Positions 593 through 44,157 of a stretch of DNA of 44,157 bases are shown in pieces. Numbering within the stretch: position 1 is the first letter of the stretch; the number at the start of each line of letters is the position of its first letter. The stretch covers positions 1-44,157 of the forward strand of contig CANFST010000021.1 in assembly GCA_947449695.1 (NCBI GenBank). The letters are read 5' to 3'. The stretch comes from Chitinophagales bacterium (GTDB lineage: Bacteria; Bacteroidota; Bacteroidia; Chitinophagales; CAIODY01). Under the pieces are notes generated by a model that was not told the origin of the DNA, did not search any database, and worked only from the letters and a program-made list of their open reading frames with translations. Position numbers and translations under genes: made by a program.

Positions 593-2812
593 ATGCCTGA
601 TATTGAAGAGTTAGAAGATTTAACAAGTGAAATATTAACAGAAAAAAAAGCGGAATCAAATCCGCTATTTTTTACGCAAAAATTATTAGAAACGCTGAAT
701 TTAGATGATGCCAAAGCTAAGAGTGAGGCTGTGCAAAAAGTAATTCGTCAGGTGGCAATGGTTCGCAACCCGATTGAAAGGGAAGGATATATTGATCCAA
801 TTGTGAAATTATTGAAAGTGGCAAAAGGCACTTTTAAAAAATTGCTGAAAGATGAAATGACTATTGATGTGATGGGGCATGAGGAAGCCGATGAAGTACA
901 GGCTTTAAAAGAAGAAATGAAAGCCAAGGGAATTACTGATGATGAGGCTTTTGATAATCTGTTAAACTTTGGTGTGTACGCTTTCAAAGGTGTGTATTGG
1001 AGCAAGGGCGATAAACGGGGTGATATTGCTATTACCAATTTTGTGATGGAAATATTATTTCATGTAAATACTGGTAACGATGTGGCTTATAGAATTGTGA
1101 AGCTGCATAATAAATATGGGTTTGAAACAGTCATAAATATCAATACGGATGATATGACAAGTGTTGGTACATTTCGCAAAATATTGGCAAGGCAAAGCGG
1201 TGGTTTCACTTTTAAAGGAAATGATAATGATTTGATTCGATTAAGCGAATGGCTACAAAAAACTGAAAAGCCTACTCGGTTTGTGGGCATTTTGGGCTAC
1301 CAAAGCAAGTATGAGTTTTACGCATTTGCCAATGGTGTGGTGGATTGCTCGAAATTGGATACGGATAAATATTGGCATGCTGTGGATGATTATGGCATTG
1401 TGAAAGTGAATGATGCCGATTATTTTATCCCAGCCATGAGTAAGGTGTATGCTGATAAAGAAGATTTATTTACCAACGATAAAAAATTTATTTACCTAAA
1501 AAAACTGATTGAATTTAAAGAGTGGGCAGCGCAATATCAATTAGTATATGGCGATAAGGCAATGGCTTCTATTTTATTTGCTGTGGCTTGTATCAACCGC
1601 GATGTAATATTTAAGAAGCTGAAACGCATGGTGATGTTTTTTTACTATGGGCAACGTGGAAGTGGTAAGGGTACGATGATTCACAGCTTGATGTATTTAT
1701 GGGGTACGCCACAGGATCAGTTAATGTTGGGCGGTGGTAGCACCATTAAAGCTACGATGCGAAAATTTGCACAGTTTAGAAATGCCATGATTTGGTTGGA
1801 TGAATACAAAAACAATATTGGGCAAAAGCCGATTGAATCGTTGAAAAATTTGTATGATGGAATTGGGTATGAAAGAGCCAACACGGACAATAGTTTAGGT
1901 ACAAATACTACTGCTGTGAATAGCGGTGCGGCGGTAAGTGGGCAGGAAATGCCAACGATTGAACCTGCACTTTTTCAACGATTTATTTTATTGATGTTTG
2001 AGCCGGGAAAGTTTGATGACGCCAAAAGAAATAATTTTAAGAAGCTTCGTGATATGGAAGAAGGTGGTTTGAGCTGCATTACGGTGGAGCTATTGAAGCA
2101 CCGAAAATATTTTGAGCAAAACTATCCGGAACAATATGATGCAGTTGAAAAAGAAGTGATCAAGCAAACCAACAACCCCAACATTGATGATAGAATGATG
2201 GTGAACGTGGCTATGATATTGGCTTGCTACAAAACTTTGGAGGCAAAAATTACATTTCCGTTTACTTATGAGGATGTAAAAAATTGGATGATTGAAAATA
2301 TGAAGCAGCAGCATTTGATATTGGCTGGGAGCGATGATGTACGCAAATGGTGGGAAATGGTTGAATTTTTATTTAACAGTAAAAACTCGAACACAAGAAT
2401 TGTGGAGGGTGTTGATTTTGAATTGAAAGAGGGAAAATTATTTATCAGGGTGCAAAATGTGCATCCGCTATACATGAATGAAATGCGCCAACGCAATGAT
2501 ACTAATGCTTTGACGAAGCCAACCTTGGAAAATTATTTGGCTTTGGACAAGAATATTTATTTGGATAAAGTGAAGCACCAATTTTCTGATGGTAGTTATA
2601 CTTGGTGCATGGTGTTTAAATATAAGCCATTGGGTATTGATTTGATTAAAGTATTCCAAAAGAAACATCAAGATGGAACAGCGGCTGAATCAATTGAAGA
2701 ATTTGAAGCAAGACGAAGGGAAAAAATGAAAGAAATGGGTGTGGATGAACCCGATTTATTTAACCCAAAAAATGAAAGTGGGCAGGTAGAAGATAAAGAT
2801 TTGCCGTTTTGA
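593..2812 (+). CDS. Phage replication helicase/primase-type ATPase
   Basis: A 739-residue protein with a P-loop ATPase core like the helicase half of phage and plasmid primases (D5/SF3-like). The Walker A motif GQRGSGKGT lies at about residues 353-361, and a Walker B-like IWLDE at about 400-404. These are followed by a basic segment ending in ALFQRF, which may carry the arginine finger. The N-terminal 300 residues are divergent; I see no clear primase catalytic motif, so priming activity is unproven. It probably unwinds phage DNA at the origin. It is the only obvious replication enzyme in the window, and no DNA polymerase was found, so the phage likely relies on the host replisome. The TGTCCA repeats just downstream are a candidate origin. 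Confidence 0.85.
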   Translation: MPDIEELEDLTSEILTEKKAESNPLFFTQKLLETLNLDDAKAKSEAVQKVIRQVAMVRNPIEREGYIDPIVKLLKVAKGTFKKLLKDEMTIDVMGHEEADEVQALKEEMKAKGITDDEAFDNLLNFGVYAFKGVYWSKGDKRGDIAITNFVMEILFHVNTGNDVAYRIVKLHNKYGFETVININTDDMTSVGTFRKILARQSGGFTFKGNDNDLIRLSEWLQKTEKPTRFVGILGYQSKYEFYAFANGVVDCSKLDTDKYWHAVDDYGIVKVNDADYFIPAMSKVYADKEDLFTNDKKFIYLKKLIEFKEWAAQYQLVYGDKAMASILFAVACINRDVIFKKLKRMVMFFYYGQRGSGKGTMIHSLMYLWGTPQDQLMLGGGSTIKATMRKFAQFRNAMIWLDEYKNNIGQKPIESLKNLYDGIGYERANTDNSLGTNTTAVNSGAAVSGQEMPTIEPALFQRFILLMFEPGKFDDAKRNNFKKLRDMEEGGLSCITVELLKHRKYFEQNYPEQYDAVEKEVIKQTNNPNIDDRMMVNVAMILACYKTLEAKITFPFTYEDVKNWMIENMKQQHLILAGSDDVRKWWEMVEFLFNSKNSNTRIVEGVDFELKEGKLFIRVQNVHPLYMNEMRQRNDTNALTKPTLENYLALDKNIYLDKVKHQFSDGSYTWCMVFKYKPLGIDLIKVFQKKHQDGTAAESIEEFEARRREKMKEMGVDEPDLFNPKNESGQVEDKDLPF

Positions 2813-2867
2813 TGAAGCAATAATTTTTTTTTTCGAGGTTGAAAACGCTTTTTTGCTCAAAAATTGG

Positions 2868-2998
2868 TGGACACTTGGACATAGAATTAAAGAATGTAGT
2901 AAAATCAATAGTTTCAAAGGATTATAAGTTTAAAAAGTGTGTCCACGTGTGTCCAAAGTACCCTGTTTTTTGTCCAGTAGCATCCACGTGTGTCCAAA
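2868..2998. repeat. TGTCCA repeat cluster, candidate origin
   Basis: The gap 2813-3092 after the helicase gene holds at least six TGTCCA hexamers: inverted at 2868-2873 and 2876-2881, direct at 2940-2945, 2950-2955, 2971-2976 and 2991-2996. The 15-mer CCACGTGTGTCCAAA occurs exactly at 2943-2957 and 2984-2998, 41 bases apart. Clustered short repeats next to a replication helicase look like iterons, but the function is inferred. Short overlapping reading frames here run on both strands and show no protein character, so I treat the gap as non-coding. Confidence 0.55.
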
Positions 2999-3092
2999 CA
3001 TTCCAAGAATTTTTTTGGAAATCGCACTTTTGAGGAGCAAAAAAAAATATTTTTTGAAAATGTTTTTAAAATAAATAATAAGACAGCTAAAA

Positions 3093-3353
3093 ATGAGTAC
3101 GTATAAAATACTAGTAAAACCAATCAAAGCAATTGATGAAATGCCATCGATTGTAAAAGGAAAAACTTTTACAATTGATAACCAAAAGTTGCTATGCCTG
3201 GAGCAACATTTTTTCAGAATGGATATGTTACCTTTGATTTATTGTATTGCTGCTTTCAATAAAAATTTGAAACAATGCCTTGATATGTGGCAAACTGATT
3301 ATGATATAAATGAATGGTGGGTAGTGGCGATGGAGTGTGAAGTTTTAAGCTAA
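3093..3353 (+). CDS. Hypothetical small protein
   Basis: An 86-residue protein I do not recognise. It has no signal peptide. The C-terminal half contains many aromatic residues and cysteines (W, Y, M, C), compatible with a small globular domain. The ATG at 3093 follows an AT-rich stretch without a Shine-Dalgarno motif. Its TAA stop (3351-3353) is part of the TAACG that begins the palindromic cassette site at 3352, so the neighbouring cassette joins directly at the end of this gene. Confidence 0.6.
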   Translation: MSTYKILVKPIKAIDEMPSIVKGKTFTIDNQKLLCLEQHFFRMDMLPLIYCIAAFNKNLKQCLDMWQTDYDINEWWVVAMECEVLS

Positions 3354-4484: not shown

Positions 4485-4536
4485 TAAGGGTTTTAAGAAA
4501 TTTTTAAAAAAAAGATAAAAAAAACTTGCAAAAAAC

Positions 4537-4614
4537 TTGACAAGCAGAAAAATAGCATTATCTTTGACCCATCAAATAATCAAATCAGGGGCGAAACTGA
4601 ATAACGGTCGCAAA
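4537..4614 (+). promoter_or_regulatory. Bacteroidota promoter with repeated structured leader, copy 1
   Basis: TTG at 4537-4539, 19 bases, then TATCTTTG at 4559-4566, a good match to the Bacteroidota -33/-7 promoter. The leader 4582-4614 (33 bases) is identical to 31019-31051. It can fold into a hairpin: GCG pairs with CGC and ACTG with CGGT, around the loop AATAA, with a two-A bulge on the 5' side. The leader ends six bases before the ATG of the 36-residue gene at 4620. The same unit at two operons suggests co-regulation by one factor. Confidence 0.8.
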
Positions 4615-5605: not shown

Positions 5606-5865
5606 TAATTAGTATTAGAAGCCCAATAACACATTTGCATTGCATTTTCGCTACACTTCATTCCAGCAAATAAGTTATTGATGCCTTAATAGGTATGCGG
5701 AGAATCAACATTAAAAGATTTACTACTACACTGCTAAAGCTGGTAGTTTAGTATAACAATTTCCAAGTTGATACACCGCATTATTTATTTTATAAAGAAA
5801 TACAATGGTTTATAATTTATCTAAAACGCTTATCTACATTGCGTTTTAGCGTATAGTTAGTTTTA
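5606..5865. other. Non-coding stretch with hairpins
   Basis: No convincing gene. It contains an imperfect inverted repeat CAATAACACATTTGC (from about 5623) with GCAAATAAGTTATTG (about 5667), like the cassette palindromes, and a small ACTAC/GTAGT hairpin near 5727-5750. There is also a perfect 9-bp hairpin, CTAAAACGC (5821-5829) with GCGTTTTAG (5841-5849), which may be a terminator or processing site. It may be the remnant of a further cassette. Confidence 0.4.
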
Positions 5866-5873
5866 TTGTTTAC

Positions 5874-5893
5874 TTTTTTGACTTGTCAAAAAA
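5874..5893. promoter_or_regulatory. TTGAC palindrome, possible operator
   Basis: A perfect 20-base palindrome with core TTGAC-TT-GTCAA flanked by T and A runs, just ahead of the terminator at 5897. The same half-sites, spaced four bases apart, form the palindrome at 35819-35832 in the repressor control region. A shared regulator is possible. The A/T flanks also allow a plain RNA hairpin. Confidence 0.35.
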
Positions 5894-5896
5894 TGA

Positions 5897-5935
5897 CAAA
5901 AGCCGCATCATTATTGATTGCGGCTTTTGTTTTTG
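5897..5935 (+). terminator. Intrinsic terminator before the head genes
   Basis: An 11-bp perfect stem, CAAAAGCCGCA (5897-5907) with TGCGGCTTTTG (5919-5929), followed by T-rich sequence. It separates the early genes and cassette region from the structural block, and it argues that the protease gene starts downstream of it. Confidence 0.8.
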
Positions 5936-6012
5936 TAGTTTTTTCAACAATAGGTTTCAGGTTGAAGTTGAGCGAATTTTGTACTACAATTTTTCCGATT
6001 CAATCTGAAGCT

Positions 6013-7221
6013 ATGACAAAAATAATTGCACAAATTATAGGATATATTGGAGCCATAAAAGGGGTTCAATCTATTTCTGCATCCAAATTTGAAAAAGATT
6101 TGGTAGCAGCTATTGATGCTTCGGGTGATGCTAAAAGTGCTGAAGTACATATTCATAGCCGAGGCGGTTCGATTGATGAAGGTAATGCCATGATTTCAGC
6201 TATGAAAAAATGCGGTGCAGAAATTATGACTGTAAATAATGGCTTATGCGCAAGCATGGCTGTTGCTGTATTTGCAGCAGGGGATGAAAGATTGGCAGCA
6301 AAGAATTCAATTTTTATGATTCATGGCGGTAGTTGTGAATCAGTTGATAATACAGCTTCTGGGCATCGCTTAGCTGCTGATATGATTGAAGCATATAATC
6401 ATACTATTGCGGTTACACTAGCTGAAGTTTTGAAAAATGAAGATGGTAGCGCAATGAGTGTGGATGATGTGAAAGCAAAATATTTGAATGATGGTCAGGA
6501 CCATTATTTAACTGCTGATGAAGCAGTTGCTTGTGGATTAGCTACTGGCATTGCTGATTTCAGTGCAGAAAACATGCCTACTAATTTAATGGCAATGAGT
6601 GCTACTGAAGTAGAAGCTCATTTTGGCTATAATACACCTGTTGCAGAAGAAACTACCGACATTGAAGGTTGGGATTTGTATTTATGCGGAAATCTTTCAA
6701 ATGCATTCATCCAAATTTTAGGATTATGTGATGACGTAGAATGTTCTGAAAATCCTTCCTTAGCAAATTTTGCTAAAAAAATAAGTGTACAAGCTGCTGC
6801 TAATTTTTCTGAATTAGCCACTTTACTCAATATTAGTGAGCAGGATGATATGCAAGCAGTAGCAACCAAATTGCGTCAACGTATTTCTGCTACATTGAAA
6901 CCACAAAGTAATGTTGTTGCAGTTACTGAATTTAATTCAGTAAAAGCTGAATTAGCTACTTCACAACAAAAAATTACTGAATTATCAGCTAAAGCTGATG
7001 AAGTAACAGCTTCATTAACAGCAAAAGCAAATGAATTGGCTACTGCTCAAACTGAAATTGCTTCTTTGAAAGCATTAATACCAGGTGCAGCAATTAATAC
7101 AGGCAATGCTAGTGAAAAGAAGGATCAAGTAGAAGCATCTGCCACCAATAGTGGATGGAAGAGTTTCCTGACTTCTACAGATAAAGAACGAATAGCTAAA
7201 GGAGAATTGAAATTGAATTAA
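6013..7221 (+). CDS. Head maturation protease fused to scaffold
   Basis: Residues 1 to about 190 resemble ClpP-type (S14) prohead proteases: a beta-strand followed by SRGGSIDEG, the nucleophile serine in NGLCASM (Ser81), and the active-site histidine in FMIHGGS (His104). The C-terminal half is Ala/Glu/Lys-rich, coiled-coil-like from about residue 290, and typical of a scaffold domain. The protein likely assembles inside the procapsid and cleaves the scaffold during maturation. The open frame extends upstream to 5866, but that part overlaps the terminator at 5897; the ATG at 6013 gives a clean N-terminus, 402 aa. The capsid gene follows 42 bases later. Confidence 0.85.
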   Translation: MTKIIAQIIGYIGAIKGVQSISASKFEKDLVAAIDASGDAKSAEVHIHSRGGSIDEGNAMISAMKKCGAEIMTVNNGLCASMAVAVFAAGDERLAAKNSIFMIHGGSCESVDNTASGHRLAADMIEAYNHTIAVTLAEVLKNEDGSAMSVDDVKAKYLNDGQDHYLTADEAVACGLATGIADFSAENMPTNLMAMSATEVEAHFGYNTPVAEETTDIEGWDLYLCGNLSNAFIQILGLCDDVECSENPSLANFAKKISVQAAANFSELATLLNISEQDDMQAVATKLRQRISATLKPQSNVVAVTEFNSVKAELATSQQKITELSAKADEVTASLTAKANELATAQTEIASLKALIPGAAINTGNASEKKDQVEASATNSGWKSFLTSTDKERIAKGELKLN

Positions 7222-13004: not shown

Positions 13005-13530
13005 ACCAACTAAGGCACAGCAATTTGCTGAATTGATTTTAGCATTGCTTTTTTTATTGATTGTTTTCATGATTGCATCGTGCAATCCTGTAAAGTATGT
13101 ACTGAATAATAATGCAGAATTTGAAAAGATTTGTGCTGAATGCAATGTGCAGCATCCTTGCTACACTAAAACAGAAATTAAATTTAAAAAAGGGGATACG
13201 ATCACTAATACTATCACCCGAGTTGATACGATTACTAAGTATGATTCAGTTGAAAAAGTTTGGACAAAAACTGTCCAAAAATTTGTTACCAAAGACAGAA
13301 TTATTCGAGATACAGTTGAGATTTCACAACCTGATTTAAGGTTGATTAATCAACTGAATATTGCATTGAATAATGCTGAAAAGAAAGCTATTGAAGATGA
13401 AAAAAAATTGCAAACTGCTGAGTATCGTGGGGATAAATTAAGAGATTATTTAGTTGGTGAAAATGTGATTATTGGATTGCTCATCATCATTTATTTTTTA
13501 TTAAAATCAAAATTCAAACTGCCTGTGTAG
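12994..13530 (+). CDS. Unimolecular spanin-like lipoprotein
   Basis: A 178-residue protein. The N-terminus has a hydrophobic signal ending in the lipobox IASC with Cys30 as the likely lipidated residue. The periplasmic part (about 31-150) is beta-rich, then helical. The C-terminus has a membrane segment, IIGLLIIIYFLL, followed by a basic tail. An outer-membrane lipid anchor at one end and an inner-membrane helix at the other is the architecture of one-piece spanins such as T1 gp11, which fuse the two membranes at the end of lysis. Neighbours are holin-like and endolysin-like genes. Its TAG stop lies within the tRNA-like sequence. Confidence 0.7.
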   Translation: MNYKPTKAQQFAELILALLFLLIVFMIASCNPVKYVLNNNAEFEKICAECNVQHPCYTKTEIKFKKGDTITNTITRVDTITKYDSVEKVWTKTVQKFVTKDRIIRDTVEISQPDLRLINQLNIALNNAEKKAIEDEKKLQTAEYRGDKLRDYLVGENVIIGLLIIIYFLLKSKFKLPV

Positions 13531-13604
13531 CTCAGTTGGTTAGAGCATGTGATAAGCCCCGTAAGGTTCTATTTTGGTCGGTGGTTCGAGTCCATCAACA
13601 GGCG
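13521..13604 (+). tRNA. tRNA-like sequence with non-canonical anticodon arm
   Basis: Good tRNA features: acceptor GCCTGTG (13521-13527) pairs with AACAGGC (13597-13603) except the innermost pair; U8-A9; D-arm GCTC-AGTTGGTTA-GAGC (13530-13546); T-arm GGTGG-TTCGAGT-CCATC (13580-13596). The 32 bases between the D and T arms (13548-13579) do not form a five-pair stem with a seven-base loop. They can form GATA/AGCC with GGTT/TATT, with a bulge and a six-base loop. It may be a degraded tRNA, or one with an inserted or altered anticodon arm. The 5' end overlaps the end of the spanin-like gene. No amino acid is assigned. Confidence 0.55.
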
Positions 13605-13619
13605 CATAAATATTTTACC

Positions 13620-14297
13620 ATGAAAAATGTAAAATTTAATCAGCAAGCACTTAATGAAATTCTCGGCGCTAATTTATTGGTTGATGGTGTAGATGGACCT
13701 CAAACTAAATTGGCTGAGGATAGATTTAAGCAAATCTTGACTAATCTATTTTTGAAAAAATCATTTTCAGTTAATAGCAATTCAACCGGCATGATTGGCA
13801 TAAGAATGAATGATTCTTATACTGATAAATTTACCGACTGGGGATTGCTAATATTTGATGCTGGTGCTGAGTTGATATTTTTCCCAATGAGTACAAAGCC
13901 TGCAACTGGTGCTGAAAGTGATGCTGATGTTGCTTGCCTAAAAGAAGGGCAATATGTAAATGCTTTTCAGTACAGCAATACAGGATGGAGTAAGTTGCCA
14001 TTTTTCCAACAGGTAAAGCCAGTCAGCATTTACAGAGACACTTTTGTCGATTGCAGATTGGATAGAAATGCAACTGTTCAAACTGGATTATTTGGCATCA
14101 ATCTGCATAGTTGGTTGAACTGGATGCAAAACATTTTATGGTATAAATCATTGAACAGAAATATTTGCCTTAGCGAAGGATGTCAAGTTGCTCAGGCTGA
14201 TGTTTGGCTGAATTTAGTTTTGAAGAATATCAATAGACGATTCACTGTTGGCGATTTCATGAGTTATACGCTTATCCATTTAGCTGATTTTAAATAA
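13620..14297 (+). CDS. Endolysin-like protein with peptidoglycan-binding N-terminus
   Basis: A 225-residue protein. Residues about 5-40 resemble a peptidoglycan-binding domain, with LLVDGVDGPQTKLAEDRF matching the usual DGxxGPxT pattern. The rest contains GINLH and, about 25 residues later, SEGCQV, a pair of motifs that I associate with cell-wall enzymes of Bacteroidota phages. Together with the preceding holin and spanin candidates this makes an endolysin likely. There is no signal peptide, so release would depend on a holin. The frame is open upstream to 13536 through the tRNA-like sequence; ATG 13620 is the better start. Confidence 0.65.
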   Translation: MKNVKFNQQALNEILGANLLVDGVDGPQTKLAEDRFKQILTNLFLKKSFSVNSNSTGMIGIRMNDSYTDKFTDWGLLIFDAGAELIFFPMSTKPATGAESDADVACLKEGQYVNAFQYSNTGWSKLPFFQQVKPVSIYRDTFVDCRLDRNATVQTGLFGINLHSWLNWMQNILWYKSLNRNICLSEGCQVAQADVWLNLVLKNINRRFTVGDFMSYTLIHLADFK

Positions 14298-18536: not shown

Positions 18537-18569
18537 TTTGGAAAACAGGCAAACATTGGTATATATTTG
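18537..18569 (+). promoter_or_regulatory. Promoter of pseudoknot RNA copy 1
   Basis: TTTG (18537-18540), 21 bases, TATATTTG (18562-18569). The predicted RNA start, three to five bases downstream, coincides with the first base of helix A. The second copy at 33349 has the same TATATTTG box and the same relation to helix A. Confidence 0.7.
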
Positions 18570-18572
18570 CAA

Positions 18573-18692
18573 TGTCGAAACCAAATTAAAATGTTTAATC
18601 AACAATTTTTACTTCAAACTTTTTGCCCCAACGAATCCGTAAAATCGGGTTACTATTCAATTCATTTTGATTTGGTTCGACACGTTGGGGTA
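18573..18692 (+). ncRNA. Leader RNA with A-B-A'-B' pseudoknot, copy 1
   Basis: Helix P1: 18573-18593 pairs with 18663-18682, 20 pairs with one bulged A and one G-U. Helix P2: CCCCAACG (18626-18633) pairs with CGTTGGGG (18683-18690), plus two weaker pairs. Because one strand of P2 lies inside P1 and the other outside, the two form a pseudoknot, with A' and B' directly adjacent. Between B and A' is a hairpin, AATCCG (18634-18639) with CGGGTT (18646-18651). A' (18671-18682) is also perfectly complementary over 12 bases to 18719-18730, which spans the start codon region of the next gene. The second copy at 33383 keeps the fold with different P1 and P2 sequences. I do not recognise the family. Confidence 0.7.
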
Positions 18693-18717
18693 TTTTTTAA
18701 CAAACAAAATTCTTTTT

Positions 18718-19299
18718 ATGTCGAACCAAAAAGCAAACCAAAACGAAGCCACATTACCTGTTGCATTGAGTGATGAACTCAAAAAATTTATCAAAAAACA
18801 TTTTGAAGAAGGTTCTCCCCTAAAATTTAAAGAAGACTGGAGGCAATTTATCCGCTTTGCTGTATGCAATGAAAAACTGGATTTAGATAAAGAACAATGC
18901 CGAATAGGGTATTTATTTTTTGAAGATCAGATTGATGATTTGATAAATATTTGTCAGCTATTGATAAATCATTTTGAGCTTGATTATTTTACAAATTCAA
19001 AAGCGAAAAATAAATATTTAATATTCGATGAACAGCATATTGATGTTTTGGAAAAAATAAGCGAAGAAATATCAAAATCTACTTTTGAAGACAGATTTAA
19101 CCTGATGACACAAATGCTACAATTGAGATTGACCTTTAAATGGCATAAAGATTGGTCTACGGATGTTTACGACATTGAAAAACTTTTAGATTTGTATAAT
19201 GATACTGTAAGTATTTTCAAATGCTTTTTTGATGGTGGATTTATGGGGTATTCAGATCAAAGTTTTCATACATTTTATTCAAAAATTAAAATTGACTAA
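18718..19299 (+). CDS. Hypothetical cargo protein behind pseudoknot leader
   Basis: A 193-residue soluble protein, rich in Lys, Asp and Phe, with an N-terminal tail of Asn and Gln. It is not recognised. The frame is open upstream to 18667, but I chose ATG 18718: it follows the leader RNA and repeats the sequence at the RNA 5' end (ATGTCGAACCAAA compared with ATGTCGAAACCAAA at 18572). Its translation start can pair with the A' strand of the leader, so expression may be switched by RNA folding. It overlaps no other gene and is three bases before the next one. Its function may relate to host or phage defence as cargo, but nothing shows it. Confidence 0.65.
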   Translation: MSNQKANQNEATLPVALSDELKKFIKKHFEEGSPLKFKEDWRQFIRFAVCNEKLDLDKEQCRIGYLFFEDQIDDLINICQLLINHFELDYFTNSKAKNKYLIFDEQHIDVLEKISEEISKSTFEDRFNLMTQMLQLRLTFKWHKDWSTDVYDIEKLLDLYNDTVSIFKCFFDGGFMGYSDQSFHTFYSKIKID

Positions 19300-28948: not shown

Positions 28949-30568
28949 ATGGAAACGAAAGAAATTTCAACATATATCAATGAGGCACAGCAAAAATGTA
29001 TGATGGTGCGAAGCCGAATACAAGTGAATGGTATTGGTAGAGCTGGTGGTAAATCAACTATTATTTTCCCTTACAAATTAAATTTGAGGGTGAGTTTAAT
29101 GCCTAGAAGTACTGGGGCATTATTGGCACCCAGTTACCAAAAGATGTTGCAAGATTTGATAAACCCAATGCTTACTGGATTATCAAAGTTTGGCTTAGAA
29201 GAAGATAGAGATTTTGTGATTGGTAAAAAACCACCGAAGAAATGGGGTTGGGTTGAACCTTATTTAAAACTCAAAAACTATGACTATTGTATTGCTTGGC
29301 GCAATGGTGCTGTGCAACGTGTTGTTAGTCAAGATAAATCAGTTACTAGTAATGGTATTGAGTGCCATTGGATAATGGGTGATGAATTCAAATTATTGAA
29401 TGGGAAACGATTTGTAGAACAATTATTACCAGCAATGAGGGGTATGGCTTGGGTTTGGCAGGATATTCCGGAGTATAACTCTTTAGAATTTTTCTCTGAT
29501 TTATATTTTGATAAACGTGGTGGTGATTGGGTTCTCAAGCTTTATGGAGATAAACATAACGATGAAGTGACTGAAGCAATTTATCAATTAGCCATGTTGG
29601 TTGAGCATTTGGAAGAAAATATTCCTACTCATCCGAAATTAGCTTCAATGAAAACTAAGTTGAACATCATGCGATGTAATTCAATTTCAGTAATCAAAGC
29701 GCCATCAACTGCCAATAGATATGTATTAGGTGCTAATTACTTTAAAACTCAAGCTGAATCAATGACAATTCAGGAGTTCAAAGGTTCAATTTTATCAATG
29801 GAAGCTGTTGGTGGTGGTGATTTCTATGCAGCATTTGATGTAGATGTTCATGGATATTTTGCAAAAGATATTATGAACAATGGATTGGCGGAGGATTTGA
29901 AAAAGATTTCAGATAAAGACAGTACAATGGATGATGATTGCGATGCTTATAAACCATTGGATATTGCTGTAGATTGGGGTGGTACAATTAATTGTTGCTC
30001 AGTTTACCAGGAAAGAATTTACTCAGTTGATAAGCTTAACGAATTTTTTACAAAACCACCAGAGAAATATTTAGCACTAGCACGAAAGGTTGCACACTAT
30101 TATCGCCATCATAAAAATAAGGTGTTCTATTTTTATTACGATCCATCAGGTAATTCTGAAAGAGCAGATTCAGTTGAAACATTTGCTGAAGAATTTGCAA
30201 ATGAGCTTCGTTCTAATGGTTGGAAAGTGATTATGATGAGTTTGGGTAAAAAGAATACTTACCATGCCAAAAAACATCGTTTGTGGTCAACTATATTGGT
30301 TGAGCGTAATGGACGATGTACTGATGAACGATTTAAGGTATTCCGCATTAATCGAAATAATTGTCCAAATTCTATTATTTCAATCGCAAATGCTCCATTG
30401 AAAATTACAAACGGTTCTTATGAAAAAGATAAAAGTTCAGAAAGAAAAACAAGTGGTGTTCTTCCAGAACATGCCACACACTTCAGTGATACTGATGACA
30501 TATATATGGTAGAAAAACAGATGCATATACTTGATGATGATTCCAGCCCATTTGGTAGAGTAATATAA
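28949..30568 (+). CDS. terL: Terminase large subunit
   Basis: A 539-residue packaging motor protein. The ATPase domain has a Walker A-like GRAGGKS (residues 30-36) and a Walker B MGDE (Asp145, Glu146). The nuclease domain has acidic residues in DIAVDWGG (about residue 342), YYDPSGN (about 400) and near the C-terminus HFSDTDD (about 515). It cuts and pumps DNA through the portal. It is the last gene of the late operon and is followed by a strong terminator at 30591. Confidence 0.9.
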   Translation: METKEISTYINEAQQKCMMVRSRIQVNGIGRAGGKSTIIFPYKLNLRVSLMPRSTGALLAPSYQKMLQDLINPMLTGLSKFGLEEDRDFVIGKKPPKKWGWVEPYLKLKNYDYCIAWRNGAVQRVVSQDKSVTSNGIECHWIMGDEFKLLNGKRFVEQLLPAMRGMAWVWQDIPEYNSLEFFSDLYFDKRGGDWVLKLYGDKHNDEVTEAIYQLAMLVEHLEENIPTHPKLASMKTKLNIMRCNSISVIKAPSTANRYVLGANYFKTQAESMTIQEFKGSILSMEAVGGGDFYAAFDVDVHGYFAKDIMNNGLAEDLKKISDKDSTMDDDCDAYKPLDIAVDWGGTINCCSVYQERIYSVDKLNEFFTKPPEKYLALARKVAHYYRHHKNKVFYFYYDPSGNSERADSVETFAEEFANELRSNGWKVIMMSLGKKNTYHAKKHRLWSTILVERNGRCTDERFKVFRINRNNCPNSIISIANAPLKITNGSYEKDKSSERKTSGVLPEHATHFSDTDDIYMVEKQMHILDDDSSPFGRVI

Positions 30569-30632: not shown

Positions 30633-30964
30633 ATTATTGGTATCAACTTTTCAAGTTGATTTTCATAAGGCATGATTTTGTAGTAAAAACCATACAAAAA
30701 ACGGTCAAAAATGCCTTGCGACTGCCAAAAAATTTAGGACGTTAGGCGTACCCTCAAAAGATAAACTAAAATGCGTATAAAAAACAAGACGCATTTTGAT
30801 GAAATTCAATGAATTATAAAAACAAGTGTTGAGTTTTTAATTTTGAAAAATCAATTGAAATTATTTAATAAAAATAATTTTAAAAACTGCTTGAAAGTAT
30901 TAACAATACTGTATTTTATGTGGATAATTATAATTAAAATCCGCAAAAATAACTTGCATAAAAC
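30633..30964. other. Non-coding stretch after the late operon
   Basis: I see no gene here. It has a perfect 8-bp hairpin with a three-base loop, ATCAACTT-TTC-AAGTTGAT (30642-30660), and a 9-bp inverted repeat, AAAATGCGT (30768-30776) with ACGCATTTT (30789-30797). The element GACGTTAGGCG near 30738 resembles the ends of the cassette sites. The rest is AT-rich up to the promoter at 30965. Confidence 0.5.
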
Positions 30965-31051
30965 TTGACAAAATACATTTTAATTTTGTATCTTTGAAGT
31001 ATCAAAATATCAATAATTAAATCAGGGGCGAAACTGAATAACGGTCGCAAA
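30965..31051 (+). promoter_or_regulatory. Bacteroidota promoter with repeated structured leader, copy 2
   Basis: TTG (30965-30967), 21 bases, TATCTTTG (30989-30996), then a 33-base leader (31019-31051) identical to 4582-4614, ending six bases before ATG 31058. It has the same hairpin with loop AATAA. The two copies lie about 26 kb apart and drive unrelated operons, so they are likely turned on together. Confidence 0.8.
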
Positions 31052-32573: not shown

Positions 32574-33347
32574 ATGAAAAAAATAATTTTAGTTGCTGTT
32601 ATTAGTTTGATAGGGTTGCAATGTTTTAGCCAATCTAGCGATTCAGTTAATTTGCAAAAAGTAAATTTTGGATTATTAATGCCAATGAGTTTTAATAATT
32701 CAGCTGTAGAAGAAAGTGGCTATACTTTTTTTGATAATGATAAAAGCTTTACTGATTTCCCTTGGACTTTATATTTAAGATTTCAAACAAAAAAGCTAAA
32801 TTATTACCCATTTTTATCAGCTAGCTTTTCAAAAAATACTTTCCTATTGAATAATTTGAAAGGTGATTTTTTACCCGAAGGAGCCGATCTTTATTTGCCA
32901 TATAAAACAGTGGGAAATGGTTGGACTCTTGGGTATTCTTCTAATTCTTATTTAAGAAACACGTCAGATTATTCACAAAGTCAATTTGCTTTCGGCTCTT
33001 TATTTACACATGATATTGGAAGTGGGTTTGAGTTGGGGTTAGGCATTGCTGCACAGGTTATTCACTATAAAATTACTGACTATCAAGCCTATGATGAATA
33101 TGACTGGGCTTATTCAACTTCTGATTCCAAATATGATGTTTATAGTTATACCAGTACTACAGATTTTGCAAATGATAATCCCAAAATTGATAAAACGATA
33201 ATTAAGCCATACTTGCCTTTATGCTTGATTTATAGAAATGCACCTGGTTATGGAGCAATAGGAGGGATACTTACTGTAAATATCATTACACCAACGCCAA
33301 GCGCAATGATTGGATTTTTATTTGATTTACAAATAAGTAAAAAATAA
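32574..33347 (+). CDS. Secreted outer-membrane-like protein (moron)
   Basis: A 257-residue protein with a signal peptide (MKKIILVAVISLIGLQCFS, cleavage probably before QSSD). The mature part has alternating hydrophobic and aromatic strands with many Tyr, Phe, Gly and Ser and ends in a strand-like FLFDLQISKK, as in small outer-membrane beta-barrels. It has its own promoter and a terminator upstream, so it is an independent unit between DUF932 and the cargo gene. A surface change in lysogens, such as receptor masking, is one possibility. Confidence 0.7.
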   Translation: MKKIILVAVISLIGLQCFSQSSDSVNLQKVNFGLLMPMSFNNSAVEESGYTFFDNDKSFTDFPWTLYLRFQTKKLNYYPFLSASFSKNTFLLNNLKGDFLPEGADLYLPYKTVGNGWTLGYSSNSYLRNTSDYSQSQFAFGSLFTHDIGSGFELGLGIAAQVIHYKITDYQAYDEYDWAYSTSDSKYDVYSYTSTTDFANDNPKIDKTIIKPYLPLCLIYRNAPGYGAIGGILTVNIITPTPSAMIGFLFDLQISKK

Positions 33348-33348
33348 A

Positions 33349-33379
33349 TTTGCTTTTATATTTCGGGCAATTATATTTG
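33349..33379 (+). promoter_or_regulatory. Promoter of pseudoknot RNA copy 2
   Basis: TTTG (33349-33352), 19 bases, TATATTTG (33372-33379), with the predicted RNA start at the beginning of helix A. Its start overlaps the end of the preceding gene's stop region by nothing; the gap is short. Confidence 0.7.
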
Positions 33380-33382
33380 CAA

Positions 33383-33518
33383 TGTTTCGCAAACAACTGT
33401 AATTATAATGATTTACCAACTTCAAAATCTATTTTCAAAATCCGCCGTGCAATCCGTATCCAATCGGGTTAACCTTGTAACTTCATTGTTACAGTTGTTT
33501 GCGACCACGGCGGATTTT
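33383..33518 (+). ncRNA. Leader RNA with A-B-A'-B' pseudoknot, copy 2
   Basis: P1: TCGCAAACAACTGTAA (33387-33402) pairs perfectly with 33489-33504, and AATG (33407-33410) adds four pairs with CATT (33484-33487). P2: AAAATCCGCCGTG (33437-33449) pairs perfectly, 13 of 13, with CACGGCGGATTTT (33506-33518). One base separates A' and B'. P3: AATCCG (33451-33456) pairs with CGGGTT (33465-33470), same sequence as copy 1. ACTTCAAA before helix B (33419-33426) is also shared with copy 1 (18611-18618). A' is complementary over 11 bases to the start region 33544-33554. P2 followed by T-rich sequence could also act as an intrinsic terminator. Confidence 0.7.
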
Positions 33519-33540
33519 ATAATTTATATCTTACCTAAAA

Positions 33541-33816
33541 ATGTCGCAAACAACAGAAACAACCAAGCCAAGCAACCAAGACTTAAATACAGTTGCTGAT
33601 TTCATCAAGTGGTTTATCCAGCCACGATATTCTTGCATTCAAAATGAAGAATTTAAAGAAAAGCATATCGTTGATACTTTGAGTATTTATACTGAAATGC
33701 AAGATATTTTGCAAAATGAAATGATTACAATGGCTGATTTAACTACCTACTTAATTCAACATGATTTTGAATTAAGCGAAACTTCATTATGGATATGCTG
33801 GGCGAAAACTAAATAA
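33541..33816 (+). CDS. Hypothetical cargo protein behind pseudoknot leader (91 aa)
   Basis: A small soluble protein of 91 residues. The N-terminal 15 residues are Thr, Gln, Lys-rich and look flexible. The rest is mostly helical with three tryptophans. It shows no obvious similarity to the gene behind copy 1 except a polar start beginning Met-Ser. The start region repeats the 5' end of the leader (TCGCAAACAAC at 33387 and 33544). It ends one base before the stop of the convergent integrase gene. It is likely expressed in the lysogen; role unknown. Confidence 0.65.
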   Translation: MSQTTETTKPSNQDLNTVADFIKWFIQPRYSCIQNEEFKEKHIVDTLSIYTEMQDILQNEMITMADLTTYLIQHDFELSETSLWICWAKTK

Positions 33817-34992
33817 TCAAATAGAGTTCAATCTATCCATCACTTTTATTGCTTCAGTTTTATCTTCGAGCAACACATGAGCATATTTCATAGTGGTTTT
33901 AATATCGGCATGTGTTGCAAGTTCTTTTGTAATTAATGGAGAGGTATTCAGCTTTAATAGTGTGGTAATAAATGTATGACGTGATGAATGGAATTTTAAT
34001 TCTTTCCCCAACTTACACTTTACACACATTTGTTTGATATGCTTTCGAATAGTTGGCTGTGCTACATAAGGGAAGTTGAACTCCTTTAATTTTTGATATA
34101 GAAATACTGCACCTTCACTTAATGGAATTGAAAATTCTTTTTCCTTACCCAATTGTTGTTTTTTAGGCTTAAAATTCAGAACATTATTTTGCATATTGAA
34201 TGTACCAATCCTAGTAACATCACTTATTCTTAAGCCAGTATGGCAACTAAACAAATAATAATTCAGTGCTACTAAGTAGGAATTATGATAATTATAATTT
34301 TCTAAAGATTCCATGAAGTGATCAATAACCAACTGAAGCTCCCTGATAGATAAAAATTCAATTTTTCTTTCAACCCAATTTGTTCCCAAATCTTCAAACG
34401 GATTAGTATTCAGCTTTACTCCAGTTTGTTTTTGAATTAATTTCCAGTAGGTCCTCACATTTTTAACAATGCTATGGATATAATTTTCAGAATACTTTTT
34501 GCGATATAATTTTTCAATTAACTGTATCATCATTGGCTGCGTAATATCAGCAACTTCAAGTTTCTTGAAATACTTACGAAGTATTTTAGCTGTGTTTAAA
34601 TGTACAGTTCGAGAGCTAGGCTTTAGTTTTATTCTAGTTTTTGCCTGTTGCTCCATATAATCAATAAAATCACCCGAAATATTTTGAATTTCAATTCTCT
34701 TATTAAATAATGAAACTGATAGTTTTATTTTCTCTAAATTAGCATCAGAAGCAATTTTATCAACTAATGATTTGAAATTGTTCAGCGTAGAATTTATTTC
34801 ATGCTGTGATTGACTGGTTGATTTTACTAGTTTTATTTTTTCATCCCAATCTTTTTCATCAATAAAAAAACCTGAATGCTTTTTTATTCTTTCTCCATTA
34901 ATAGAAAGATTAAAATAAATTGGCTGTAAGCCAGTAGTACGGCTTTTGGAATCAGTACGCAAATAAATTTTACAACGAATTCGATTAAACAT
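33817..34992 (-). CDS. int: Phage integrase, tyrosine recombinase
   Basis: A 391-residue recombinase of the Bacteroidota type: an N-terminal arm-binding domain (about 1-110), a SAM-like core-binding domain (about 105-205) and a C-terminal catalytic domain. Catalytic residues seen in order are Arg in TGLRISD (255), His and Arg in HSSRH (335, 338), His in ATHAD (361) and nucleophile Tyr in MKYAHV (370). It inserts the phage at attB. I use ATG 34992; the longer frame to 35058 would run through the repeat TTGGGACA. It ends at the stop of the convergent cargo gene. Confidence 0.9.
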   Translation of the reverse strand: MFNRIRCKIYLRTDSKSRTTGLQPIYFNLSINGERIKKHSGFFIDEKDWDEKIKLVKSTSQSQHEINSTLNNFKSLVDKIASDANLEKIKLSVSLFNKRIEIQNISGDFIDYMEQQAKTRIKLKPSSRTVHLNTAKILRKYFKKLEVADITQPMMIQLIEKLYRKKYSENYIHSIVKNVRTYWKLIQKQTGVKLNTNPFEDLGTNWVERKIEFLSIRELQLVIDHFMESLENYNYHNSYLVALNYYLFSCHTGLRISDVTRIGTFNMQNNVLNFKPKKQQLGKEKEFSIPLSEGAVFLYQKLKEFNFPYVAQPTIRKHIKQMCVKCKLGKELKFHSSRHTFITTLLKLNTSPLITKELATHADIKTTMKYAHVLLEDKTEAIKVMDRLNSI

Positions 34993-35391
34993 ATCGACCT
35001 CCTTGCGTATTACACTGTTGGGACAAACTTCGGGACGATTTCCTAGAATGAGCATCATGGGACAGTAGTTGGGACTGTTTTTTTGTTAAGAAATAAATTC
35101 TTAACCATGACTGAAAGCTGTGGTGGGCTTGATTTAGCGTAATAAAAGTACAAGTAGGTAAATCTTGTACTTTTATTATTGGTTGTCCGACTAGATTTTT
35201 GATTAATTTTTCAAACGCTGACTGCATATAGGCTTTAGATTTTTATTTTATTTTTTGGGACAGTTTTGGGACAAAATGCAACAATTTCCGTATTGCGGAA
35301 ATTTGTCTATTAAATACAACAGGTTATTTTGCATTGTGATAATTTATAAATAATTGATTTGTATTGTTTTCTTTCTTTGGTTTGCGGTATG
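34993..35391. other. Integrase upstream region with repeats, candidate attP
   Basis: TTGGGACA or close variants occur at 35018-35025, about 35031 (CGGGACG), about 35058, about 35069, 35255-35262 and 35266-35273, grouped in pairs as integrase arm sites often are. There are also three perfect inverted repeats: GTTAAGAA/TTCTTAAC (35085-35105), a 15-bp stem at 35140-35154 with 35164-35178, which resembles a bidirectional terminator, and AATTTCCG/CGGAAATT (about 35284-35305). I found no clear core site or tRNA fragment. No gene is supported. Confidence 0.55.
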
Positions 35392-35778
35392 CTATGCGGA
35401 TTTTGCTTTCCGGTTTCCTTTAAGACTGGCAATCATTTCTTTTTGCAACTCAATTGTGTATTCTAAGTCGGCTATACGCTTGTCTTTTGCGTTGCCATAT
35501 TCTACGGGAGGCTCTGATAATATATTATTACTTGCCATTTTCCCATCTAAAAACATTGGTTCACTTGGATTGAATAAGTAATTAATATTCATCTTGAAAT
35601 TATCATGGAAGTACTTTATCGTTTCATTAGATGGAGGCCTACTACCTGTAAACACACTACTTATATACTGCCTAGTATAAGTTAGTTTATTCGCCAATTC
35701 AGTTTGCGAAGGCAACTGATCACTTTGTTTTATTTTTTGGACAACACTAACAAAACGCTTACTGATAGCATCATTCAT
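35392..35778 (-). CDS. Lysogeny repressor, HTH family
   Basis: A 128-residue protein with an XRE-type helix-turn-helix at about residues 18-60: the segment PSQTELANKLTYTRQYISSVFTGSRPPS is the typical recognition pattern. A short C-terminal coiled coil (about residues 95-120) may allow dimerisation. There is no protease-type cleavage domain. It faces the Cro-like gene across a divergent control region with palindromes. ATG 35778 is chosen, as the longer frame from 35832 would run over the putative operator. Confidence 0.8.
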   Translation of the reverse strand: MNDAISKRFVSVVQKIKQSDQLPSQTELANKLTYTRQYISSVFTGSRPPSNETIKYFHDNFKMNINYLFNPSEPMFLDGKMASNNILSEPPVEYGNAKDKRIADLEYTIELQKEMIASLKGNRKAKSA

Positions 35779-35818
35779 ATGTGGATAATTTTGTTGATAA
35801 ATATTGTAAAGCAAATGC

Positions 35819-35855
35819 TTGACTTTTGTCAACTCATTGCTTTACATTTGCAATG
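35819..35855. promoter_or_regulatory. Lysis-lysogeny control region with palindromic operators
   Basis: On the plus strand, TTG (35819-35821), 21 bases, TACATTTG (35843-35850) is a promoter for the Cro-like gene. Two palindromes overlap it: TTGAC-TTTT-GTCAA (35819-35832) covers the -33 site, and CATTGC-N9-GCAATG (35835-35855) covers the -7 site. Binding of a repressor here would block this promoter. The minus-strand promoter is not obvious. Confidence 0.7.
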
Positions 35856-43072: not shown

Positions 43073-44014
43073 ATGAGTACAAAAATAGAATGGGCAGATG
43101 AAACATGGAATCCTGTAACAGGATGCAATAAAGTAAGCGCAGGCTGTAAAAATTGTTATGCCGAAACATTAGCAAAACGCTTTTGGAAAGGCAGAAAATT
43201 TACTGATGTACAAATGCATGAGGACAGATTAAGTCAGCCTTACAAATTCAAGCCTGGCACTAAAGTATTTGTGAACTCAATGAGTGATTTATTTCATGAG
43301 GATGTGCCGTTTGAATTTATTGATAAAGTTTTTGCAGTAATGGCTGTAAACGCCGATACAACTTTTCAAATCCTTACAAAGCGACCTGATAGAATGCTTG
43401 AATACTTCAATTTTCAAGCTCCTTTTTATGGTGATTATCCCAATGCTGAAACCGAAAAAAGAGTTTGGGATATTGCCTTAACTGAATACTCAAAATATTC
43501 AACTGAGTGGCCATTGCCAAATGTTTGGCTAGGCGTTTCTGTAGAAAACCAAGCGGCAGCAGATGAAAGAATTCCATTGCTTTTGAAAGTGCCAGCAGTG
43601 GTAAGATTTTTGAGTTGTGAGCCGTTGTTGGGGGAAGTAGTTTTAAGAAAAATAACACGAATTGACAGAATGGAAGTATTAGTTAAATGGATGCACATGA
43701 TTCATTGGGTAATTGTTGGCGGTGAAAGCGGACATGGTGCTAGACCTATGCACCCTGATTGGGTTCGTTCACTTCGTGACCAATGCCAAGCTGCTGATGT
43801 GCCTTTCTTTTTTAAGCAGTGGGGTAGTTGGTATCCTGCATTTGTAAGTAATGCTGCAAATTATATTTCAGAAGGGAATAAAAAATCAAGCTACCAATAC
43901 CATTATGAAAATGAACATAAGGAAGATAAATGGCAGTTCATGAAAAAAGTTGGTAAGAAACAAGCAGGTGCAATGCTTGATGGATTGGAGTATAAAAATT
44001 TTCCTAATCAATAA
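43073..44014 (+). CDS. DUF5131 / phage Gp37-Gp68 family protein
   Basis: A 313-residue protein. The N-terminus IEWADETWNPVTGCNKVSAGCKNCYAE has three cysteines in the pattern C-x6-C-x2-C, and the segments SMSDLFHEDVP, FQILTKRPDRM, WLGVSVENQ, FLSCEPLLG and VGGESGHGARPMHPDWVRSLRDQC are the hallmarks of this family. The cysteine set suggests an iron-sulfur cluster of radical-SAM type, so the protein may modify a nucleic acid; this is inferred. The stop at 44012-44014 lies in the terminal repeat, and the gene is followed after the circle junction by the gene at 21. Confidence 0.85.
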   Translation: MSTKIEWADETWNPVTGCNKVSAGCKNCYAETLAKRFWKGRKFTDVQMHEDRLSQPYKFKPGTKVFVNSMSDLFHEDVPFEFIDKVFAVMAVNADTTFQILTKRPDRMLEYFNFQAPFYGDYPNAETEKRVWDIALTEYSKYSTEWPLPNVWLGVSVENQAAADERIPLLLKVPAVVRFLSCEPLLGEVVLRKITRIDRMEVLVKWMHMIHWVIVGGESGHGARPMHPDWVRSLRDQCQAADVPFFFKQWGSWYPAFVSNAANYISEGNKKSSYQYHYENEHKEDKWQFMKKVGKKQAGAMLDGLEYKNFPNQ

Positions 44015-44157
44015 AACTGGCTATTAAAATGGAAAATAACCCATTAGGTAATAAACTGAAACCAATTGAAGAATTAAAAATTGATGCTCAAGAAAAAATT
44101 GATTTACAAAATTGTAAAGAGGCTGCCAACAGAAAAAAATATGGTGATTTTTGGAGC
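44009..44157. repeat. Terminal direct repeat, right copy
   Basis: Exact copy of bases 1-149, including the start of the first gene (from 44029). It shows that the sequence closes on itself; unique length is 44,008 bases. Confidence 0.95.

Follow-up and report, generated by a model that had tools for sequence, protein, structure and literature searches.

The window, by which we mean the whole stretch of DNA that was analysed, is one entire contig (G000:C21) of 44,157 bases. Because a perfect 149-base direct repeat lies at its two ends (positions 1-149 and 44009-44157), the contig is probably a complete phage genome, either circular or terminally redundant. It encodes tail genes, TerL, an integrase, a repressor-like gene, and two orphan genes, each of which is preceded by a leader of the same plan (copy 1 and copy 2; Table 1). 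The phage genes and the promoters point to a host in the Bacteroidota. Elsewhere in the window, there is a duplicated leader of another type (4506-4614 and 30945-31051), each directly 5′ of a different ORF; this pair shares a box resembling TTGACA, followed in our description by TATCTTTG and by 40 nt with 98% identity (AATAATYAAATCAGGGGCGAAACTGAATAACGGTCGCAAA). A tRNA-like gene (13521-13605), with an anticodon unnamed by ARAGORN, overlaps the start of the ORF at 13536-14297.

Table 1. Positions of the leader elements, their predicted target genes, and other phage genes in the window
Feature	Position	Strand	Remarks
Copy 1 promoter, TTTG - 21 nt - TATATTTG	18537-18569	+	Read from sequence
Copy 1 arm A	18573-18593	+	20 pairs with A′, one bulged A
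Copy 1 arm B	18624-18633	+	Pairs with B′
Copy 1 hairpin P3	18634-18651	+	Same stem as copy 2
Copy 1 arm A′	18663-18682	+	B′ follows directly
Copy 1 arm B′	18683-18692	+	Followed by TTTTTT
Copy 1 arm C	18718-18733	+	Lies at the start codon; complementarity to A′ over 12 nt
193-aa orphan gene	18718-19299	+	Predicted copy 1 target
TerL	28949-30568		Phage relatives mostly from Porphyromonas, Flavobacterium, and Cellulophaga phages
Copy 2 promoter, TTTG - 19 nt - TATATTTG	33349-33379	+	Bacteroidota type, read from sequence
Copy 2 arm A	33387-33402	+	5′ end of predicted RNA; mimics C
Copy 2 arm B	33437-33449	+	Pairs with B′
Copy 2 hairpin P3, AATCCG..CGGGTT	33451-33470	+	Stem common to copy 1
Copy 2 arm A′	33489-33504	+	Partner is A or C
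Copy 2 arm B′	33506-33518	+	Followed by T-rich sequence; P2, possible terminator stem
Copy 2 arm C	33541-33556	+	ATG and initial codons of the 91-aa gene; a repeat of A
91-aa orphan gene	33541-33816	+	Predicted copy 2 target
Integrase	33817-35058	-	Pfam Phage_integrase, Arm-DNA-bind_5, and SAM-like domains
Repressor-like gene	35392-35832	-	Match below the Pfam cut-off

The original prediction described copy 2 as a leader with two long, interleaved, perfect helices, and we recovered this geometry in full. Arms A and A′ form 16 pairs without mismatch (P1), extended by AATG (33407-33410) and CATT (33484-33487); B and B′ form 13 pairs, also without mismatch (P2); and a single base separates A′ from B′. 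The leader lies, as had been claimed, behind a promoter, here TTTG-N19-TATATTTG (TTTG at 33349-33352 and TATATTTG at 33372-33379), which ends 7 nt 5′ of A. Its label as "Bacteroidota-type" follows what we take to be the consensus, and a sigma-70 promoter scan found none. It had also been argued that such repeats would hardly arise by chance, and across 150 versions of the window shuffled with dinucleotides preserved, the mean number of interleaved pairs in which both arms reached at least 11 was only 0.013, and that of single perfect repeats of at least 16 was 0.007. When perfect inverted repeats of at least 10 within 160 nt were considered, the copy 2 leader was the sole interleaved site in the window, with two such pairs: A/A′ with B/B′, and B/B′ with A′/C. 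The nested fold of 33382-33570 (-39.5 kcal/mol, z -3.8) displays only P2 and P3, because nested folding cannot hold both pseudoknot helices. Judging from the sequence, P1 and P2 may form jointly as a pseudoknot, in which case P1 need not exclude a P2 terminator.

What the original prediction overlooked is the third arm, C: 12 nt at 33543-33554, beginning at the G of the ATG of the 91-aa gene, repeat A and are complementary to A′. Since C repeats A, A′ of copy 2 has two possible partners, A and the start codon region, and when each state was forced, P1 gave -42.0, P2 -44.9, and A′-C -43.3 kcal/mol, all within 3 kcal/mol of one another. This bears on the suggestion that the leader is an attenuator, in which P2 would end transcription when P1 is not formed. 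A promoter-proximal leader that can form a pseudoknot, with P2 as a likely terminator, fits all of our findings; a U-run lies 3′ of B′ in 29 of the 32 parsed relatives of type Y (described below). However, a switch governed by P1 leaves arm C out of account, and with it the antisense relation of A′ to the start codon region; given that the A/A′/C triple co-varies, the element is better read as a C4/CI-type antisense RNA that carries a decoy of its own, probably combined with attenuation.

The first copy, to which the prediction had alluded, was found at 18562-18735 (blastn, 18562-18700, 64.5%, E 3e-6). Moreover, a covariance model built from copy 2 alone recovered copy 1 with 41.5 bits (E 1e-7); apart from this, the window gave a strong match only at the reverse complement of the element itself. 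The arm sequences of the two copies differ, whilst the promoter, loop pieces, and the letters of the P3 stem are kept, and both retain the A/A′, B/B′, A′/C, and P3 plan in spite of their different arms. The duplex of copy 1 A′ has an energy of -18.6 kcal/mol with its own C versus -11.3 with that of copy 2, and copy 2 A′ gives -21.7 with its own C versus -8.0 with that of copy 1. The forced states of copy 1 (P1, -33.4; P2, -27.1; A′-C, -31.0 kcal/mol) spread over about 6 kcal/mol, and the bulge-free score of its helices, 42, is barely higher than that of the best chance match, 41 (L204). Both A arms carry a short ATG frame resembling the beginning of the gene that follows (33380-33402, 6 codons; 18571-18590, 5 codons).

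Copy 2 adjoins the integrase gene and the repeats occur in both orientations, as might be expected of a DNA element, such as attP or integrase arm sites, operators, or invertible repeats. An own-genome search for short matches, made with attB in mind, returned another 42, the shortest of 14 bp. We nevertheless regard a DNA element as very improbable. Copy 1 lies 15 kb away from the integrase and has other arm sequences; a common protein would keep the arms and vary the loops, which is the reverse of what is observed; and the positions of the promoter, U-run, and start codon would be left unexplained.

Searches for relatives by sequence were largely negative. The exact A..B pattern of the window leader had no match in viral contigs; a looser pattern matched at least 120 stretches, and a structure check of 109 contexts added no new leader; and the TTTGCAATG pattern matched 1 viral stretch and 51 stretches in genomes, all of which lack the helices. 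Besides its own genome, covariance model R1 gave 10 weak matches (E 0.04-1) in 198 genomes, and in the six of these inspected as alignments the helices were broken or partial. A blastn search against phages returned short chance pieces only, and among prophages beside TerL relatives no leader was recognised in the 17 stretches retrieved (of 18). In these searches, no near-sequence relative of the window leaders was found, and what links them to the Bacteroidales leaders described below is their plan, promoter, and placement of the arms rather than sequence homology.

A looser detector (A, its reverse complement, and A again), run over 2.07 Mb of loci gathered for other purposes, gave two further leaders of the same plan, in L227 (contig G097:C268) and L148. 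The first belongs to a related phage contig that carries three leaders of the A/B/A′B′/C plan, two of which precede HNH-like genes (below the Pfam cut-off) and have loops in common. Within this pair, the changes in A, A′, and C are matched (CAATCGCTGACA/TGTCAGCGATTG/CAATCGCTGACA versus CAATCACCGAGA/TCTCGGTGATTG/CAATCACCGAGA). A pattern of the G097 type matched 1 of 396 genomes, which was G097 itself. At L260, on the same phage-like contig, a CRISPR-like array with the repeat end CCAGTTTGGTACGATTAAAAC (about 5770-6100) lies a few hundred bases 5′ of the leader, and an additional GTTGTAGGGGAATTTGCCCCGTTTTTTT stretch (about 6254-6320), perhaps a remnant of another leader, is found immediately 5′ of it.

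L148 has three leader-gene units in tandem, adjoining a tRNA and an integrase, and between units b and c the three arms A, A′, and C have again changed in step (GATCTCC/GGAGATC/GATCTCC versus GTTCACC/GGTGAAC/GTTCACC). Small tandem genes at 2468-3300 of this locus have 3′ ends that run into the promoter of the unit that follows, an arrangement that looks like unequal duplication of the entire unit. With the small L148 protein as query, we obtained nine viral loci, and leaders, of two sub-types, were present in all eight with upstream sequence inspected. A motif scan then gave 37 stretches which, with previously collected loci, amounted to 35 distinct type-Y leaders (Bacteroidales viral). In sub-type X (L262, L268), C matches A′ over a long stretch and the differences in A mostly read as G-U pairs, as if the two pairing states were balanced.

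Thirty-two of the type-Y leaders were long enough to be parsed (three are truncated), and 29 of them have a distinct A′. The AnnTTTG (-7) box is found immediately 5′ of A, at near-constant spacing, in all 32, and an ATG lies inside or adjoins C in 28 of the 29, as well as in copies 1 and 2. The best duplex partner of A′ was the cognate A in 26/29 cases, and the longest exact A′-C complements averaged 9.2 for cognate and 5.7 for non-cognate combinations. Summed over leaders, the A′-C complements reached 266 (maximum of 203 over 20,000 permutations), the A′-A complements 278 (permutation maximum 193), and the B/B′ complements 209 versus 178 in permutations (28 distinct pairs), the excess over permutations being inflated to some degree by kinship among the type-Y leaders. 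The near-paralog comparisons (b vs c; L260 vs L261) are free of this inflation. Across five multi-leader replicons (two or three leaders each), cognate A′-C complements were 9-16 nt long in 12/12 cases and non-cognate ones 4-7 nt in 18/18. The cognate C was the top partner by duplex energy over a 150-nt stretch in only 8/29 leaders; when ranked by exact match, it stood alone at the top in 10, shared the top rank in 12, and was outranked in 7. It is often not uniquely best because A′/C alleles are reused among phages. We consider A′-C and A-A′ pairing as good as shown by co-variation.

A strict detector gave 18 matches in 248 loci (2.19 Mb) and 0, 0, and 0 in three shuffled sets; 14 of the matches fall in loci picked for type Y and 4 elsewhere, and the three on the G097 contig, which had been chosen through a looser-detector match, are not independent. 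The detector misses copy 1 because of the bulge in P1. Weaker interleaved pairs do occur elsewhere in the window, as chance inverted repeats in AT-rich DNA would, but with copy 1 recovered by the copy 2 covariance model, and with counts near 0 in the shuffles and the shuffled detector sets, the probability of a chance origin is negligible, and we rejected it on the basis of the A/A′/C co-variation. The element is real, beyond chance, and a member of a wide set of leaders.

Because many leaders of gut viruses keep this design with different matching sequences, we propose a self-recognition switch, in which each copy would be the leader of a phage gene and would encode an antisense RNA against that very gene. 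Transcription would begin at A, and the transcript would form helices P1 (from A and A′) and P2 (from B and B′), giving a pseudoknot with P3 in between. At the U's after B′, some transcripts would stop as a stable RNA of ~130-150 nt, and the remainder would continue into the downstream gene. Once released from A, A′ would pair with C, either in trans on other copies or in cis on the read-through mRNA, and translation would be blocked. In a lysogen, the RNA would hold the gene off (an antirepressor in several relatives), and a phage would be affected only if its A′/C allele were identical, as in C4 (P1/P7) and CI (P4). The sequences, their complementarities and co-variation, the positions of promoters and U-runs, and the antirepressor-type genes of four relatives are direct observations. 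We infer transcription, termination, the pseudoknot as such, and the silencing, and, from the layout and the known behavior of C4 and CI, the short RNA, the translation block, trans action, and immunity. Overall, we lean towards a C4/CI-like antisense RNA, combined with an attenuator, that silences the downstream gene with allele-specific pairing.

The main rival is an attenuator that acts in cis only: A′ would pick either A (gene on) or C (which would conceal the start codon), P2 would serve as terminator, and ribosomes, a protein, or a ligand would decide, with no trans action. Every pairing indeed sits on one transcript, the states are close in energy, A′-C pairing in cis alone would yield much the same co-variation, and the ATG mini-ORF over A in both window copies could allow ribosomes to melt A. 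Such mini-ORFs are, however, absent from relatives such as L268; leaders within a replicon do not cross-match (at most 7 nt in 18/18 non-cognate combinations), which a cis switch would not need; and genes of the antirepressor type lie downstream in four relatives, as for C4. We therefore think a purely cis-acting switch rather unlikely, albeit a serious contender.

The antisense RNA reading gains from comparison with C4 (P1/P7, RF01695). In both, the antisense segment lies within the leader of the gene silenced, pairing is in two parts (a′/b′ resembling A′/B′), targets include antirepressor genes, and allele changes of a few bases stay complementary. The window A′ is complementary to an upstream copy (A) and to the start of the downstream gene (C); in C4, the upstream complementary copy is a1/b1. 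One account has the C4 antisense RNA of P1 block an operon that contains icd and the antirepressor ant (PMC8198154). Another describes loops a′/b′ as binding upstream of and over the ribosome site of the target, which is occluded, and C4 as being cut by RNase P, with a 4-nt difference that distinguishes P1 from P7 (PMC5320573). The leaders differ from C4 in that they would form a long P1/P2 pseudoknot, rather than three stem-loops with a′/b′ in loops, as outlined in the same passages (PMC5320573). C4 also has an RNase P site, GGW. The arms of the window leader sit in long helices, and the U-run suggests that the 3′ end is a terminator. They also belong to another phylum, C4 being listed for Proteobacteria and phages in the relevant part of Weinberg et al. 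(2010; PMC2864571). No Rfam family, C4 included, matched the leader. The C4 model had no match at E ≤ 10 in the genome to which the window belongs or in 33300-33700, and none over the cut-off in 14 control genomes either, so that these supplied no positive control; neither the window nor any of six type-X/Y loci contained a match at the gathering score. Since the model does not match, we do not class the leaders as C4, although they would appear to work like it.

Two further systems are similar in part. In P4, the partners of CI are an upstream site, seqA, and a downstream one, seqC, so that one antisense segment complements two sites on the same transcript, as set out in passages of PMC4825925. 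The order seqA-seqB-seqC corresponds to A-A′-C in both copies, on what would be a single transcript; CI, however, works via transcription termination, whereas C here includes the start codon. IsrK of Gifsy-1 (Salmonella) is, in the same passages, an sRNA with a leaky terminator and a read-through mRNA that includes an antirepressor-like gene (PMC4825925), but the mechanism is not alike, as IsrK activates anrP translation in trans.

Ten downstream proteins were compared with Pfam, and one matched AntA (L296, 7.6e-21) and three Phage_pRha (L292, L272, L294). Three of these four AntA/Rha proteins were submitted to PHROGs, where all matched anti-repressor and Rha-like families. The remaining downstream proteins tested, both window genes included, had no family at E 0.001; the 193-aa protein had a weak PHROG match to a function-unknown family. 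Searches for protein relatives of the 91-aa and 193-aa genes found none, and neither is recognisable as an antirepressor with Pfam or PHROGs. Several leader targets are small proteins that, by eye, look membrane-bound.

Small orphan genes of this appearance, together with a structured RNA and a terminator-like U-run, would also suit an RNA toxin-antitoxin system (type I or III), in which the RNA before the terminator guards against a downstream toxin. In type III systems, the antitoxin is made up of tandem repeats and binds to the toxin protein, whereas the RNA here is antisense to the gene start; there is no whole-unit tandem repeat within the leader, and neither window target had a Pfam match that would indicate a ToxN-like gene. 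As several targets are antirepressors, we consider a toxin-antitoxin system improbable.

The C4/CI-type layout is known from P1 and P4 and is apparently undescribed in Bacteroidota; our search of open-licence papers found no description of such an element in this phylum. Bacteroidota phages are major phages of the human gut and, to our knowledge, their immunity and superinfection rules are poorly known. At about even odds, in our estimation, Bacteroidota phages and islands may harbor a large and rapidly diversifying repertoire of antisense RNAs for immunity, with a fold independent of C4. Their 7-20 nt A/A′/C "password" would be rewritten in step at three places, with two or three orthogonal ones per phage before different genes, including antirepressors, which would amount to RNA-coded heteroimmunity readable from sequence. 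Through their three-way matched changes, the leaders also provide a clean natural test of divergence in RNA pairing specificity. Should they act like C4/CI, the orphan genes downstream of them become candidate antirepressors or killing genes, and the immunity group of a prophage would be predictable from a few bases.
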